Assembly: GCF_001908725.1 (NCBI RefSeq) | Contig: NZ_CP018725.1 | Span: 2,357,501 to 2,421,500, forward strand | DNA length: 64,000 nt | Reading direction: 5' to 3' | Source of the DNA: Xanthomonas vesicatoria ATCC 35937 | Lineage (GTDB): Bacteria; Pseudomonadota; Gammaproteobacteria; Xanthomonadales; Xanthomonadaceae | Part shown: positions 2,116 to 55,380 of the stretch, in pieces | How positions within the stretch are numbered: the first letter of the stretch is position 1 | How the letters are laid out: the number at the start of each line of letters is the position of its first letter | The notes under the pieces: generated by a model | Seen by the model: only the letters and a program-made list of their open reading frames with translations | Told to the model about the DNA's origin: nothing | The model's database searches: none | Translations under genes and position numbers: made by a program

Positions 2116-2589
2116 AGGCTGCGGCGGGCCTGACCGGTGCGGATCGCACTGGTCAGGGTGCCGCAGCGCCAAGCGGTCGTAAGTTGGGCGAGTTGACGTG
2201 AGACCTGCGCGTCGCCTTGGCAGTGCCCGTGGCCGACAACATGGTCCGCACCAGCCAGCACGTCAGCAAACTTTCGCGATCAGCGCGGAGCAAGACGTAA
2301 GTGATGCATTACAGCCACTAACAACTTGCGATGCAGCCACCAGGCGGGCGGGTCCCTACTCGGTGCGGCAGGTACCTTTCGTACACTCCGGTATCTCCAT
2401 GTCATCCGCACACCGGTCTATTGCTGGCTACGTCTTGTTAACCGCTCTCGGATGGTCACGCGGATTCCCGGCTACTGGCGGCCTTTGTTTGCAAAGGTCG
2501 CTGTCCTTCGGGCCGCATCCATAGACCGCCAGTTGACGGCATCGCCCCGGCTGCACAAGCTGCATGACCGCTGCGCATCTGGCTCTGGC
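2116..2589. other. Intergenic stretch with one copy of a dispersed repeat
   Basis: No convincing gene is seen; open frames here have no homology signal I recognise. Bases 2313-2395 carry a degenerate copy of the dispersed element described at 22664. The last 100 bases probably hold the anmK leader. Confidence 0.5.
2313..2395 (+). repeat. Dispersed intergenic repeat, degenerate copy
   Basis: The shared core CACCAGGCGGGCGGG followed by CTCGGTGCGGCA matches copies at 22664-22749, 35111-35188 and, more weakly, 3978-4032. The left part, agccactaacaacttgcga, corresponds to the gcggctnacaaaacgac part of the other copies. Confidence 0.5.
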
Positions 2590-24959: not shown

Positions 24960-25552
24960 GACCTCCGCCCGTGCGTAAGTCGCTGTCTGCGTAACCAGCG
25001 GTGCAGTACGGTAGACGAGACCGAAAGTGACCCGCAGTCGGGGCGGCCTCGCACCCTGGGCAAGCATCGGCATGCAAGACGCCACCCGCCAAGGCGACAG
25101 ACAGGCATTCAGCGGCAGACGATCACTGCGACGGACGTGCCTTGAAATACCACCATGGCAGCGCGCAATGGGTGCGGTTGGCAGCATTGCGACATGCCAC
25201 TGCACTTGCGCCGCATGGCGAGGAGTGCATCGTCGATCAGCAGCGATGTGGTCGGCGGCGGCGACCGACACGCATCGACAGCCCAACGCTTAACCCTTGC
25301 CGCTACCGCCCCACCGCATGACACCGCCGACGTGAACGGCTAACACTACCGGGCGAGCAATCGTCAGACGATGCGCACGGCGCGCTCAAACCAACGTGTA
25401 CGAGTCGCACATGGCGCAACCAACAACGGCCGTGTCCACCTGACGGTGGGCGCAGGCGTCTTGTTAGACGCCCCTGTCCTGCTAGCCCATGCTGGCACGC
25501 ATCTGTCGGCCAGCACGACGCGCGGCCTGAGAGTGACACGGCACGATCATCC
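24960..25552. other. Intergenic stretch, nothing clear
   Basis: About 590 bases without a supported gene. A GGCGTCT/AGACGCC hairpin (25455-25472) lies about 80 bases beyond the stop of the minus-strand glycosyltransferase, but no T-tract follows in that direction, so it is only a weak terminator candidate. Confidence 0.4.
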
Positions 25553-50879: not shown

Positions 50880-51114
50880 ATGTTCGCGCCCTACGCAGCC
50901 CTGCCTGCAACCGGACCTGACGCACGCTCATGCACACCAGCCATTTCATCCAACGCAATCGACTGCCCGGCGCGCTTGGCGCGGCATCGTTTGCGTGCAC
51001 GGCCAAACAGGCCGTGCGCACCATCATCGGCTGATGTCCTGATTCAAGGAGATCGGTCACCCGATCTCCGAGGCACGCGAACGCCCTCGGATGCTGCATC
51101 CGGGGGCGTTTTCG
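50880..51114 (+). ncRNA. Candidate structured small RNA with its own terminator
   Basis: Three strong hairpins follow each other: GCACGGCC/GGCCGTGC with loop AAACA (50997-51017), GGAGATCGG/CCGATCTCC with loop TCAC (51048-51069), and AACGCCC-CGGATG/CATCCG-GGGCGTT (51080-51110) followed by TTTTC. The last is an intrinsic terminator with no gene upstream on this strand that needs it within 500 bases. An AT-rich promoter-like stretch precedes. The overlapping open frame shows no protein character. The 5' end is a guess. It lies in front of the tRNA-like/RtcB locus. No known RNA family identified. Confidence 0.5.
51080..51114 (+). terminator. Rho-independent terminator of the candidate small RNA
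   Basis: Thirteen paired bases with single-base bulges on each side, loop CTG, then TTTTCG. Confidence 0.75.
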
Positions 51115-51163
51115 TTGTGCGTTCGTCGCGAACCTGTGGATGACCGCAGTTGAAACCCGGGCA

Positions 51164-51317
51164 TGGACTGCCCGACGACAGGGATGTTGTATTACCACGA
51201 GGCGCGACAGCGCTGTGCCCAGGTTTCGGGCACGGGTGGATGGACTGCCCGACGATAGGGATGTTGCATTGCCACGAGGCGCGACAGCGCTGTGCCCAGG
51301 TTTCGGGCACGGGTGGT
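51164..51317 (+). repeat. 77-base tandem duplication with internal hairpins
   Basis: Unit 1 starts TGGACTGCCCGACGACAGGG at 51164 and unit 2 TGGACTGCCCGACGATAGGG at 51241; the period is exactly 77. Units differ at only a few positions. Each holds CAGCGCTG, a perfect 8-base palindrome, and the hairpin GTGCCC AGGTTTC GGGCAC. CGGGCA before each unit can also pair with its TGCCCG. No coding role seen. Confidence 0.85.
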
Positions 51318-51467
51318 ATGTGGCCATGCACTTACTGAATTGCCGTTTGAATAAAACGGTAATCGGAAACATTGCGAAAGATCATCAGCGGACTGGAGTT
51401 TATTCCAGCCGGTGCGCGCGGCTGTGCCGTGGCGTATACCGATCATCTTTCTCGTGTTTCTTGTTTT

Positions 51468-51534
51468 GGGTATCGGCTCGTGGTCGAGCAGCGGCAATCT
51501 CCGCAGGCGCGGTTCAATTCCGCATTACCCACCA
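51468..51534 (+). ncRNA. tRNA-like sequence 1 (degenerate, ends in CCA)
   Basis: 67 bases. The acceptor is only partly paired (GGGTA with TACCC), then a D-arm GCTC GTGGTC GAGC keeping GG of the D-loop, an anticodon-like arm GCGG CAATCT CCGC with a six-base loop, a T-arm GCGG TTCAATT CCGC with a canonical TTCRANY loop, and ACCCACCA at the 3' end, so the CCA is encoded. The D- and T-loops needed for the tRNA elbow are present, but loop size and acceptor pairing are not those of a working tRNA. It abuts a second such element and precedes the slipin-rtcB genes. Confidence 0.6.
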
Positions 51535-51603
51535 CTGGATAGCTCAGAGGTAGAGCAGCAGATCTTGATCTGTTAGTCGCGGGTTCGACTCCCGCTCCAA
51601 GCA
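51535..51603 (+). ncRNA. tRNA-like sequence 2 (normal D and T arms, six-base anticodon loop)
   Basis: It starts right after the CCA of the first element. TAGCTCAGAGGTAGAGCA is a perfect tRNA D-region with T8, A14, GG18-19 and A21. The anticodon arm is GCAGA TCTTGA TCTGT, fully paired but with six instead of seven loop bases. The variable region TAGTC and the T-arm GCGGG TTCGACT CCCGC are canonical. The acceptor pairs only as TGGA/TCCA before AAGCA; its 5' side runs into the previous CCA. With one inserted base the loop could read CTT (Lys), but as written no anticodon is presented. More likely a tRNA mimic or damaged tRNA gene than a working tRNA. Confidence 0.65.
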
Positions 51604-51953
51604 ATGACCTTCCCGGTCATCTCGGGGACGCAAGTCCCTTTACGGAAACGCCCATGCCGGGCGCAATTACGCAATGCATCGCGTGATTGCACGCGGCAGC
51701 GGCGAGGTCGCCGGGCGCTTGCCCTGGACGCGTCGCCCTACGCTCCGCCGTGCCTTCGCAAACCATCGCGCGGCTGCGGCAACGCATCGGCAGGCGCAAA
51801 CAGCGCAGGCGCCCCGCACCGCCGCCGTCACCGGCGTTTCCACCTTCCAACGCCGCGTTGCATCGGCACGCGTTTGGCCATCAGTCCGATCCGGGCGGCA
51901 AAACGGCATTACCTACGGATCGGACCACCAGAGCCAACCCAAGGAGATGTGTC
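51604..51953. other. Leader between the tRNA-like pair and the slipin gene
   Basis: Directly after the second tRNA-like element are two small hairpins, TGACC TTCCC GGTCA and GGGAC GCAA GTCCC followed by TTTA; the second, with a GNRA loop, could end a tRNA-like transcript. The rest is GC-rich with no gene recognised. AAGGAG precedes the slipin ATG. I could not find a strong sigma-54 promoter here. Confidence 0.45.
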
Positions 51954-53072
51954 ATGTTCTGGACCAAGAGGGTCGTGATCGGCGACGGCGAGCGCGGCCT
52001 GGTGTATCGAAATCGTCGGTTCGAGCGCGTGCTCGTGCCCGGTGTCTACCGCCTGTTCGACCCGCTGAGCCGTACCGAGGTCAGCGTGCACACCATCCAC
52101 CGCGACGATGAGGTCGGCCACGATGCCGACATGCTGATCGACACGCTGGGCGCCGCATTGCCGCAGCACTTCGTGCTGGCCGACATCGGCACCGCGCAGG
52201 TGGGCCTGCTGATCCGCAACGGCAAGCTGGACCAGGTGCTGCCACCGGGCACCCGCGCGCTGTACTGGCGCGACGCCGCCATCGAGGTACAGACCCTGCC
52301 GTTGGGCGATGGGTTGCAGGTGCCGGGCGATGTGCAGCGGCGTTTGCGTCAGCTCGGCACCTTGTCGCGCGTGGCCGCGTGCATGGACGTGCCCGCCGAG
52401 TCGCAAGGGCTGGTGTTGGTCGACGGCAGGCTGATGGCACCGTTCGGCCCCGGCGCATACGCCTTCTGGAATTTCCAGAAGAACGTATCCACCGAGGTGA
52501 TCGACCTGCGCGTGCAGTCAGTCGAGGTATCGGGACAGGAGCTGTTGACGCGCGACAAGGTGTCGTTGCGGGTCAATCTGGCAGCGAGCATGCGCGTGAC
52601 CGATGCCGTGGCGATGCGTACGCGTGTGGCCAAGGCGGGCGACTACCTGTACCGCGAACTGCAGTACGGGTTGCGCCGCGCGGTTGCGTCCAAGACGCTG
52701 GACGAGTTGCTGGCCGACAAGGCATCGCTGGATGCGGACATCTTCGGCTACGTGCGTGGCAGCGTCGGGGGTTTCGGTATCGACGTGCTCGGCGTGGGCG
52801 TCAAGGACGTGATCCTGCCCGGTGAGATGCGAGCGATCCTCAATGCGGTCGTGCAGGCGGAGAAGCAGGCGCAAGCCAATGTGATCCGCAGGCGCGAGGA
52901 GGCCAACGCCACCCGCTCGTTGCTCAACACCGCCAAGCTGATCGAAGACAGCCCGGTGCTGATGCGACTGAAGGAGCTGGAGGCGCTGGAAAAGGTCACC
53001 GAAAAGATCGACAGGCTCACCGTGTTCGGCGGCCTGGATGGCGTGCTGAAGCAGTTGGTGACGCTCAGATAG
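51954..53072 (+). CDS. Slipin/stomatin-like SPFH (band-7) protein
   Basis: A 372-residue member of the SPFH/band-7 group linked to RtcB loci. The N-terminal half is a separate domain (VVIGDGERGLVYRNRRFERV, LVPGVYRLFDP). The SPFH core runs from about 150 (ESQGLVLVDGRLMAPFGPGA, STEVIDLRVQSVEVSGQELL, TRDKVSLRVNLAASMRV) to GIDVLGVGVKDVILPGEMRA, followed by a charged helical tail (EKQAQANVIRRREEANATRS). No typical membrane hairpin is visible. The start at 51954 has AAGGAG nine bases upstream. Slipins next to rtcB are a recurring, unexplained partnership; oligomeric scaffolding is the usual guess. Confidence 0.9.
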   Translation: MFWTKRVVIGDGERGLVYRNRRFERVLVPGVYRLFDPLSRTEVSVHTIHRDDEVGHDADMLIDTLGAALPQHFVLADIGTAQVGLLIRNGKLDQVLPPGTRALYWRDAAIEVQTLPLGDGLQVPGDVQRRLRQLGTLSRVAACMDVPAESQGLVLVDGRLMAPFGPGAYAFWNFQKNVSTEVIDLRVQSVEVSGQELLTRDKVSLRVNLAASMRVTDAVAMRTRVAKAGDYLYRELQYGLRRAVASKTLDELLADKASLDADIFGYVRGSVGGFGIDVLGVGVKDVILPGEMRAILNAVVQAEKQAQANVIRRREEANATRSLLNTAKLIEDSPVLMRLKELEALEKVTEKIDRLTVFGGLDGVLKQLVTLR

Positions 53073-53128: not shown

Positions 53129-54352
53129 ATGAGTACTTCACAACATTTCGAATGGCTGCATGCCGAAGGCAGCACCACCCCGATCAAGGGCTGGGTGCGC
53201 GGCGTGCCGCTGGAAGAACAAGCCCATGCGCAGTTGCGCAATATCGCCGCCGTCCCGTTCGTCGGGCCTTGGGTGGCAGTGATGCCCGACGTGCACCTGG
53301 GCAAGGGCGCAACCGTGGGCTCGGTGATCCCGACCCGTGGCGCCATCATCCCGGCGGCCGTCGGTGTGGATATCGGCTGCGGCATGGCCGCGGTGCGCAC
53401 CACGCTGCGTGCCAACGACCTGCCCGACAATCTGGCGCAACTGCGCTCCAGCATCGAGCGTAGCGTGCCGGTGGGCAACGGTCGCGGCGGCGAGCATCGC
53501 AAGCTGCCCGACAGCATCCAAACCCGCATTACGCAGTCGGGGCTCGTGCAGCGCCTGGATGCGATCAAGCAGCAACACCGGCGCATCCGCACCGACAAGC
53601 TGGAATGCCAGATCGGCACGCTCGGCGGCGGCAACCATTTCATCGAACTGTGTCTGGACGAGACAGACGCCGTGTGGGTGATGTTGCACAGCGGCTCGCG
53701 CGGTACCGGCAACCTGATCGGCACCTACTTCATCGAGCGGGCGCGTGAGCAGCTGGCACACCGCGTGCTGGGCTTTCATCTGCCCGACAAGGACCTGGCC
53801 TTCTTCATGCAGGACGAGCCGTTGTTCGATGAGTACGTGGAAGCGGTGTCCTGGGCACAGGACTACGCCCGCGAAAATCGCGAAGCGATGATGGCGCGGG
53901 TGTTGGCGGAGATGCGTCACCGCCTGCCCAAGTTCCAGCTGGAGAAGCTGGCAGTCAACTGCCACCACAACTACGTGCAGACCGAGACCCACCATGGCGA
54001 GGAACTGCTGATCACCCGTAAGGGCGCGGTGAGCGCACGTCGCGGCGAGTTGGGGATCATTCCCGGCAGCATGGGCACGCGCAGCTATATCGTGCGCGGG
54101 CTGGGCAACGCGGAGAGCTTCCACAGCTGCAGCCACGGTGCGGGACGGGTGATGAGCCGAACCGCAGCGCGTGCTCAGATCACGCTGGCTCAGCATCGCG
54201 AGGCCACCGCACATGTGGAGTGCCGTAAGGATGCTGCAGTGATCGATGAATCGCCTGCAGCGTACAAGTCGATCGATGCGGTGATGGCCGCGCAGCAGGA
54301 TCTGGTCGAGGTCATGCACACGCTGCGCCAGGTGGTGTGCATCAAGGGATAA
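53129..54352 (+). CDS. rtcB: RNA-splicing ligase RtcB
   Basis: GTP- and Mn-dependent ligase that joins RNA 2',3'-cyclic-phosphate or 3'-phosphate ends to 5'-OH ends, repairing broken tRNA or rRNA. The 407-residue protein has MPDVHLGKGATVGSVIPT, VGVDIGCGM (metal Cys), LGGGNHFIEL (metal His), HSGSRGTGN, and the nucleophilic His in FHSCSHGAGRVMSR; all key residues are present. The start at 53129 is preferred because AAAGGA lies nine bases upstream of it but touches the earlier ATG. It follows slipin by 56 bases, probably the same operon, and ends at a strong terminator. No rtcA cyclase or rtcR regulator is in the window. Confidence 0.95.
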   Translation: MSTSQHFEWLHAEGSTTPIKGWVRGVPLEEQAHAQLRNIAAVPFVGPWVAVMPDVHLGKGATVGSVIPTRGAIIPAAVGVDIGCGMAAVRTTLRANDLPDNLAQLRSSIERSVPVGNGRGGEHRKLPDSIQTRITQSGLVQRLDAIKQQHRRIRTDKLECQIGTLGGGNHFIELCLDETDAVWVMLHSGSRGTGNLIGTYFIERAREQLAHRVLGFHLPDKDLAFFMQDEPLFDEYVEAVSWAQDYARENREAMMARVLAEMRHRLPKFQLEKLAVNCHHNYVQTETHHGEELLITRKGAVSARRGELGIIPGSMGTRSYIVRGLGNAESFHSCSHGAGRVMSRTAARAQITLAQHREATAHVECRKDAAVIDESPAAYKSIDAVMAAQQDLVEVMHTLRQVVCIKG

Positions 54353-54579: not shown

Positions 54580-55380
54580 ATGAGCAATCTCGACAAGCAG
54601 GAACGCAAAGCAGAGGCACAGGACTTGAACCGCGACCCGATCTCCGGTGCGCCGGGCTCGCATCCGGTTGGTGTGGGCGTGGGCGGCATTGCTGGCGGTG
54701 CGGCGGCAGGCGCCCTGGCAGGGACCGTATTTGGGCCGCTTGGCACCTTGATCGGTGCGGCTGCCGGCGTTGTGGCAGGCGCAGCTGCAGGCAAGGGTGT
54801 GGCCGAGCGACTCGACCCGACGGTGGAAACCGAATACTGGCGCCAGGAGCATCAGAACCGTCCGTACTACAAGGAAGGCACCGACTACGACCGCGATTAC
54901 GCCACTGTCTACGGCTTTGGCCTGCAAGCGCGCGAAACGCGCCCGGCCAGCACCTGGGAAGAGACCGAAGCGACGCTCGCCGGCGAGTGGCCACGTAATC
55001 GTGGCGAATCGCGCCTGGAATGGGATGAAGCACGCCTGGCCGCACGCGATGCGTGGGAGCGCGCCGATCGCACCCACACCGTGTACCGCGATGGCGACAC
55101 CCACTATGCCGGCCGTTTCGACAGCGCCAGCTACCGTGACAACGAATACTCCTACGATGACTATCGCCCCGCTTACCGCTATGGCATGCAGGCGCGCCAG
55201 CAGCATGCCGGCCGCCAGTGGGACGACCATCTGGAACGCGACCTGGGCGATGGCTGGGACCGCTTCAAGGCGGACTCACGTTTGACCTGGGAAAAGGCCA
55301 AGTACGCGGTGCGTGAGGCATTCGATTCGGATCATCATGGCGATGCGGCACGTCGCAACCCCACTGACCCGCGCGTGTAG
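54580..55380 (+). CDS. Glycine-zipper protein with a duplicated aromatic/helical domain
   Basis: A 266-residue protein without a signal peptide. Residues about 28-75 form a glycine-zipper region (VGVGVGGIAGGAAAGALAGT, GAAAGVVAGAAAGKG), which may enter a membrane. The rest contains two related blocks of about 55 residues: one around VYGFGLQARETRPASTWEET ... SRLEWDEARLAARDAWERAD, the other around YRYGMQARQQHAGRQWDDHL ... SRLTWEKAKYAVREAFDSD. Shared positions are YG-x-x-AR, W-x-x-x-E, W at the middle and SRL-x-W-x-x-A. The pattern recalls stress-related proteins of proteobacteria, but I cannot name the family. GGAGG lies just before the ATG. Confidence 0.75.
   Translation: MSNLDKQERKAEAQDLNRDPISGAPGSHPVGVGVGGIAGGAAAGALAGTVFGPLGTLIGAAAGVVAGAAAGKGVAERLDPTVETEYWRQEHQNRPYYKEGTDYDRDYATVYGFGLQARETRPASTWEETEATLAGEWPRNRGESRLEWDEARLAARDAWERADRTHTVYRDGDTHYAGRFDSASYRDNEYSYDDYRPAYRYGMQARQQHAGRQWDDHLERDLGDGWDRFKADSRLTWEKAKYAVREAFDSDHHGDAARRNPTDPRV

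Follow-up and report, generated by a model that had tools for sequence, protein, structure and literature searches.

Tandem tRNA-like domains in the large leader RNA of slipin operons follow slipin rather than RtcB

The slipin operon of Xanthomonas vesicatoria ATCC 35937 is preceded by a tandem of two tRNA-like domains, whose T- and D-arms are intact and whose anticodon arms are non-decoding (positions 51468-51534 and 51536-51603 of the 64,000-nt stretch of DNA analysed, which we call the window). These mimics sit within a structured leader RNA of ~585 nt (51339-51923), as delineated by phylogeny-aware covariation. Compared across loci, the pair has a defined architecture with covarying stems, lies in the orientation of slipin, occurs also without RtcB, and combines a conserved elbow with a fast-evolving anticodon loop. 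With moderate confidence, we propose that the mimics are the tRNA-shaped domains of a slipin-associated leader RNA that acts as a slipin-bound bait or sensor, RtcB being optional. A conserved tRNA-shaped RNA with a fixed elbow and a loop changing faster than silent sites would be a concrete RNA component of slipin systems and moves attention from the ligase to slipin; furthermore, a mimic RNA that follows slipin may link RNA repair to the conflict with tRNA-cutting toxins. The features of the locus are the following.

51339-51923, + strand: structured RNA leader of the slipin operon, ~585 nt (RNAalifold, covariation; bounds taken from the conserved helices)
51339-51363, + strand: hairpin PA
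51366-51462, + strand: upstream domain with helices PB, PC, PD and PE
51468-51534, + strand: tRNA mimic 1, with encoded CCA (51532-51534) and a collapsed anticodon arm (parse, conservation, covariation)
51536-51603, + strand: tRNA mimic 2, with a 4-bp acceptor (51536-51539/51596-51599) and a 6-nt anticodon loop (Rfam tRNA, parse, covariation)
51605-51619, + strand: hairpin H3
51625-51638, + strand: hairpin H4 with a GCAA tetraloop
51644-51841, + strand: domain closed by PF (51644-51654 with 51831-51841) and holding PG, PH, PI and PJ
51886-51923, + strand: hairpin PK, just 5' of the slipin ribosome-binding site
51954-53072, + strand: slipin (SPFH/Band_7) gene (Pfam PF01145, 1.1e-29; no obvious transmembrane segment by hydropathy; AlphaFold model)
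53129-54352, + strand: rtcB RNA ligase gene (Pfam PF01139, 2.4e-123; the sole RtcB match in its genome)

An open frame of 266 aa without Pfam match is located 3' of rtcB (54580-55377), and the Xanthomonas sRNA sX9 (Rfam RF02228, 56.2 bits) is encoded elsewhere in the window (25338-25412, minus strand).

The acceptor stem of mimic 1 (GGGTAT/TTACCC) consists of five Watson-Crick pairs and a T.T, and is accompanied by the D-stem GCTC/GAGC, GG in the D-loop, the T-loop TTCAATT and the discriminator A. Its anticodon arm can be parsed either as 4 bp with a 6-nt loop or as four pairs plus a mismatch with a 4-nt loop. After a single base (51535), mimic 2 follows with the acceptor TGGA/TCCA (4 bp), the D-stem GCTC/GAGC, GG in the D-loop, the T-loop TTCGACT and the 6-nt anticodon loop TCTTGA, and without CCA. 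The canonical T-loops, the GG of both D-loops and the CCA encoded at the end of the first domain had been noticed in the initial annotation and are borne out by sequence and parse. The initial annotation had also assigned each domain a six-base anticodon loop and a weak acceptor stem. Such a loop is indeed present in mimic 2, although it is unusual (71 of 78 loci have 7 nt), and is one of two possible parses in mimic 1 (6 or 4 nt); a weak acceptor describes the 4-bp stem of mimic 2 but not the five Watson-Crick pairs and T.T of mimic 1. Furthermore, the pair is not immediately upstream of slipin as had been stated, as it ends ~350 nt short of the slipin start. In neither mimic did the parse reveal the 7-bp acceptor ending in CCA or the 7-nt anticodon loop with U33 that are expected of a tRNA, and ARAGORN called no tRNA in the window. 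Scoring with a tRNA covariance model, the check suggested at the outset, came out positive for mimic 2 (Rfam tRNA match at 51536-51599, 43.6 bits with a cut-off of 29) and negative for mimic 1, which stayed below the cut-off in the window scan. The window scored 112.1 bits with R1, a model of the pair based on 30 loci that do not include the window. Compared to tRNA (RF00005), the cloverleaf and the canonical T- and D-arms are thus retained, whereas the short or collapsed anticodon arm of mimic 1, the 4-bp acceptor and missing CCA of mimic 2, and the non-conserved anticodon are different.

A slipin protein scan gave 170 loci, the best 80 of which, mostly from Lysobacterales, were named and used for comparison. 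Mimic 2 was found in 77 of these 80 loci and in the window; in the remaining three the contig ends 121-360 nt upstream. Mimic 1 was parsed in 77 of the resulting 78 loci (the exception being L011; L013, L028 and L038 gave poor parses). RNAalifold applied to the 78 leaders gave ~20 helices, mapping to 51339-51923, and conserved blocks are present outside the mimics in 12 aligned Xanthomonas leaders and along the leader in the 78-leader consensus. That the mimics belong to a larger structured RNA had escaped the initial annotation. Covariation was evaluated with a custom phylogeny-aware null, patterned on R-scape (77 sequences, 686 columns, 40 simulated alignments). Twelve column pairs had E<0.05, all of them at least 80% canonical; three are in the mimics and nine outside (two each in PA and H4, besides those in PD, PH and PJ). 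At the level of whole helices, PC, PD, PG, PH, PJ, the mimic 1 acceptor and the mimic 2 anticodon stem exceeded every one of 300 simulations, and PA (P 0.003), PI (P 0.003), H3 (P 0.010), PB (P 0.017), H4 (P 0.043) and the mimic 1 anticodon stem were within P 0.003-0.043; note that these per-helix P values are optimistic, since the same alignment had served to select the helices. Covariation was not above the null for the mimic 1 T-stem (P 0.10), PK (P 0.16; 95.8% paired) and the long-range helix PF (P 0.87; 93.5% paired), nor for the conserved PE, both D-stems, the mimic 2 acceptor and the mimic 2 T-stem (P 0.97-1.0); all of these are 93-100% paired, and an inverted repeat at PF is also evident from the sequence of the window. 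Among Rfam models, tRNA was the only one at gathering score in 51150-51960, and raising E up to 1 added three sub-threshold matches, of which two lie on the opposite strand. In 50 distant leaders, a motif scan found a GTGCGCGCGGC-like block in one (L121), and two (L103, L133) have the PF motif with each of its halves located 3' of the pair. As the motifs of the large RNA are nearly absent there, this RNA is established only for the 78-leader set. Upstream of the leader, a tandem 77-nt unit is present in two copies that are 96% alike (51163-51316), at one place only in the genome, and most of the 12 aligned Xanthomonas leaders have a similar sequence at this position.

A leader with this location could be a purely cis-acting regulatory element, i.e. 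a part of the 5' UTR whose tRNA-like domains are bound by a tRNA-handling factor or cut upon damage, which alters slipin translation and never exists as a separate RNA. This possible but rather improbable explanation would agree with the location upstream of slipin and on its strand in nearly all sampled pairs, and with the conserved hairpin PK beside the ribosome-binding site, though PK does not covary above the null. It would also agree with the scan of 51000-52100, where no terminator-like sites were detected (and no sigma-70 promoter either). However, the size of the RNA and the number of its helices go beyond a typical attenuator, and a simple binding switch would not need diversification of an anticodon loop. 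The search for the sigma-54 site of RtcR control with a loose pattern was uninformative (108 matches in the window vs 116 expected).

The anticodon loops differ between the two mimics. In mimic 2 (n=78), the loop has 7 nt in 71 loci, 6 nt in four (including the window) and 5 nt in three. In mimic 1 (n=77), a loop of 4 nt prevails (41 loci), the others having 3 nt (7), 5 nt (8), 6 nt (4), 7 nt (14), 8 nt (2) and 11 nt (1); the poor parses are the 11-nt case, one 8-nt and one 5-nt case. The 71 mimic 2 loops of 7 nt possess U33 in 53 cases (missing in 18) and A37 in 62, and their positions 34-36 comprise 29 different triplets, two of which would read stop codons. A CCA is present after mimic 1 in 61 of 77 loci; a few loci (e.g., L015, L038, L044, L059, L064, L076) have a mimic 2 acceptor of 6-7 bp and a mimic 1 without CCA. 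The elbow is nearly invariant, with GG in the D-loop of 76/77 first and 78/78 second mimics. Loop identity is therefore not conserved among the compared sequences, while loop form is mostly kept.

Rates of change were compared in 24 non-overlapping close pairs, which share no sequence but whose independence on a tree is not proven; only 7-nt mimic 2 loops were used, and the window, L011, L013, L028 and L038 were excluded. Mean divergence was 0.363 for the mimic 2 loop, 0.472 for its anticodon and 0.030 for T-arm plus D-stem, compared to 0.162 for the four-fold sites of slipin, which in GC-rich genomes are not a strictly neutral standard. The loop diverged more than the four-fold sites in 19 of the 24 pairs and less in five (sign test p 0.003, Wilcoxon p 0.0009). 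For the ten closest pairs the ratio was 8 to 2, which falls short of significance at 0.05 (sign p 0.055, Wilcoxon p 0.053). A first estimate from 31 pairs, including L013, L028 and L038, had given 0.343 for the mimic 2 loop and 0.412 for the mimic 1 loop vs 0.165 for four-fold sites. These rates suggest, though they do not prove, that the mimic 2 loop is under diversifying selection; its fast change could partly come from relaxed constraint, and recombination between leader and slipin may affect the comparison. Alternatively, the RNA could be just the scaffold of a ribonucleoprotein, with the tRNA elbow merely docking the slipin ring or cage and the anticodon loops drifting because nothing reads them. 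The near-invariance of the elbow and the way the pair tracks slipin would fit such a scaffold, as would the SPFH fold of the slipin model, a fold of proteins that form rings. We nevertheless regard it as unlikely, since the mimic 2 loop keeps 7 nt in 71/78 loci and A37 in 62/71 of them and its divergence exceeds that of four-fold sites.

The association of the pair with slipin was followed in three overlapping samples of 151 (order), 369 (class) and 398 (phylum) genomes. The order sample contained 37 genomes with slipin relatives (E<=1e-40), the class sample 21 and the phylum sample 23 (both E<=1e-50), corresponding to 71 different slipin genomes. R1 is not suitable as a genome-wide detector: it matched every one of the 151 order-sample genomes, with up to ~101 bits away from slipin, presumably at ordinary tandem tRNAs. 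Because of this lack of specificity, the pair was traced by its location beside slipin. In 34 of the 37 order-sample genomes, slipin is preceded by an R1 match, in some cases a weak one, at a distance of at most 1.4 kb (16 by coordinates and 18 of 19 fetched slipin loci). The other three are L083, whose ~560 nt of upstream sequence gave no tRNA-like match, and G069 and G103, where the slipin match is at the contig start and was not fetched. Independently of R1, a pair of T-arms at most 900 nt upstream on the slipin strand was present in 26 of the 33 loci tested outside the order and in 15 of the 17 distant ones within it (all but L134, with 292 nt upstream, of 34 outside loci, and all but L083, L093 and L097 of 20 in-order regions), although this test cannot separate mimics from ordinary tRNAs (e.g., L111, counted as a pair, lies amid 13 ARAGORN tRNAs). 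On the opposite strand, such a pair was found in 1/33 and 1/17 loci, and in the slipin coding sequence in none; a single T-arm occurred by chance in 7/33 and 4/17 loci on the other strand and in 1/33 and 2/17 slipin coding sequences. L097 (contig C135 of G025) carries a strong intact pair (2241-2392, minus strand, 133 bits); the genome search found no slipin match in G025, and an open frame at this locus resembles a broken slipin gene. Upstream of slipin in L118 (2069-2283) and L120 (4369-4590), ARAGORN detects three tandem tRNA-like domains.

RtcB behaves differently. It is encoded downstream of slipin in 77 of the 80 named loci, in none of the 17 distant in-order loci and in 11 of the 33 loci outside the order (downstream side only, some contigs being short). 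Of the 71 slipin genomes, 35 have RtcB at most ~4 kb from slipin, on the same strand and to either side; in 21 it is located elsewhere or on a different contig, and in 15, among them all eight from outside the class, RtcB was undetected at E<=1e-40. Conversely, 20 RtcB loci without adjacent slipin were inspected (17 of the 18 slipin-less RtcB genomes, i.e. all but G055, and three with slipin elsewhere); 19 of them have no T-arm pair, and the one that does has it in two ordinary-looking tRNAs. Two of the 17 scanned with Rfam match YrlA (L137, L144), and in L136 and L141 T-arm-like sequences are repeated with wider spacing. A Ro60 vWA domain is present in both upstream proteins tested (L136, L137), one of which also has TROVE; this TROVE protein accompanies one of the two YrlA-matching loci. 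Arrays of several YrlA-like RNAs are located upstream of rtcB in L136, L137 and L144, two of these loci being from the window's own family. Ro60 and YrlA thus seem to occur in some repair loci, and slipin and the tandem pair in others, many of the RtcB loci considered here having neither. Across the compared loci, the pair follows slipin, RtcB being a frequent but optional partner. The initial annotation had centred its interpretation on RtcB, with the mimics as possible decoys, substrates or sensors for the ligase. In spite of the 77/80 named loci with RtcB downstream, a substrate or decoy dedicated to RtcB is very improbable in view of the slipin genomes without adjacent (only 35 of 71 have one) or even detectable RtcB and of the RtcB loci devoid of the pair, and RtcB as sole partner is ruled out as a general rule.

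In the MAFFT alignment of the pair from 30 loci (A1 took in 30 of 74 usable references), 98.3% of the cells are paired, changes occur on both sides in 23 of 38 pairs vs 9.5 expected from shuffles, and the covariation score is 0.306 vs 0.115 in shuffled and at most 0.071 in slid alignments. Together with the parse and the presence of mimic 2 in 77/80 loci, this supports the initial proposal of non-decoding tRNA mimics whose elbow is kept across species. Decaying or recently captured ordinary tRNA genes, compatible with the blank ARAGORN result, the abnormal loops and the persisting Rfam tRNA match of mimic 2, are hardly credible given the sharing of mimic 2 among the named loci and the compensatory changes; conservation and covariation rule out random decay with loss of the elbow, which the initial annotation had named as the finding that would speak against it. 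Within the genus Xanthomonas, the pair is patchy, with a match in 17 of 35 species genomes.

For the slipin-bound bait or sensor, the following course of events can be envisaged. The leader RNA would be transcribed together with the slipin operon and held by the slipin oligomer. As it imitates tRNAs, tRNA-cutting nucleases or the handling of broken tRNAs would act on it. Mimic 2, with its usually tRNA-like 7-nt loop and varied anticodons, would serve as cuttable bait, and mimic 1, usually closed by a short loop, as anchor. A cut would then titrate the nuclease, signal damage or do both. RtcB could reseal the cut RNA in genomes that have it; in genomes without RtcB such resealing is impossible. 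The comparisons suggest that the RNA is not a decoding tRNA but serves as bait, sensor or scaffold, and the RNA-repair context of slipin elsewhere (with RlaP in E. coli and rtcR in Citrobacter) counts in favour of the bait or sensor. Against it speak the lack of U33 in 18 of 71 loops and the 6-nt loop of the window instead of the usual 7 nt. By analogy, the comparable tRNA-like YrlA argues against it as well: Hughes (2020) found no YrlA fragments and judged YrlA not to be a substrate of the Salmonella nuclease, raising the possibility of a competitive inhibitor of the nuclease (PMC7790460).

Several known systems are close to the slipin pair. YrlA (RF02553), encoded with Rsr/Ro60 in rsr-yrl-rtcBA operons, is likewise a non-coding RNA of tRNA-like form, with RtcB and a ring protein as neighbours. 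However, the T-arm precedes the D-arm in the YrlA-matching loci, unlike the slipin pair with its normal tRNA order. Moreover, YrlA had no match in the window at gathering score, nor in 51150-51960 with E raised to 1, and Ro60 none among the four window proteins scanned. Burroughs and Aravind reportedly proposed in 2016 that modules of the Ro/TROVE and SPFH/Band-7 type come with cognate Y RNAs and with a novel tRNA-like molecule. The slipin loci resemble these modules in the SPFH protein, in RtcB in many loci and in the tRNA-like non-coding RNA in the operon: a tRNA-like RNA is encoded beside the SPFH/Band-7 gene in the window and its relatives, and RtcB, as RNA-repair gene, is in the same neighbourhood in the window, though not universally among relatives. 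They appear to differ from these modules by the tandem pair in a ~585-nt leader, the fast anticodon loops and the many loci without RtcB. The little-described RNA of slipin-type RtcB systems that the initial annotation suspected therefore has a precedent, in that tRNA-like RNAs with SPFH modules had reportedly been proposed in 2016. In our limited literature search, no paper was recognised as describing the slipin tandem-mimic RNA. We thus treat the kind of RNA as known, and the tandem design, the large leader RNA, the fast loop and the independence from RtcB as additions not found in print. The 2016 work on SPFH repair modules and tRNA-like RNA is cited in a 2026 preprint (PMC13404743). In Pseudomonas aeruginosa PA14, an SPFH gene is located among rtcA, rtcB and rtcR (PMC13086221); in contrast to our loci, no tRNA is mentioned for it in that paper (0 occurrences).

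The eukaryotic vault (major vault protein and vault RNA) belongs to the closest known systems as well. Three MVP entries align to the slipin model from model residue 3-5 on; the N-terminal part of slipin alone gave no matches at E<=0.001 and by itself lends no support to MVP-type N-terminal repeats. Tentatively, and as a possibility rather than an expectation, the Rfam-absent large RNA with its two diversifying-loop mimics and the membrane-free slipin might form a vault-like ribonucleoprotein that baits or senses tRNA-cutting toxins. RtcB, RlaP and other repair enzymes would then be exchangeable clients, and the anticodon set of a species would record past attacks. PADLOC contains no model for slipin or RtcB. 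A phage or virus origin was considered and rejected, slipin having no matches in phages at E<=1e-10 and being unconfirmed in viral contigs, which were searched with close relatives only.

E. coli and Citrobacter possess a slipin of 42-45% identity followed by a gene with a nucleotidyltransferase domain; the one tested, from E. coli, is RlaP (RNA repair pathway family). In Citrobacter, rtcR lies beside slipin as well, on the side opposite to the nucleotidyltransferase-domain gene. Their leader contains a T-arm-like sequence, which R1 scores with only 8.9 bits and in which ARAGORN finds no tRNA. At least 80% of the E. coli slipin stretch is present in 1621 of 5426 E. coli genomes, which makes laboratory work possible.
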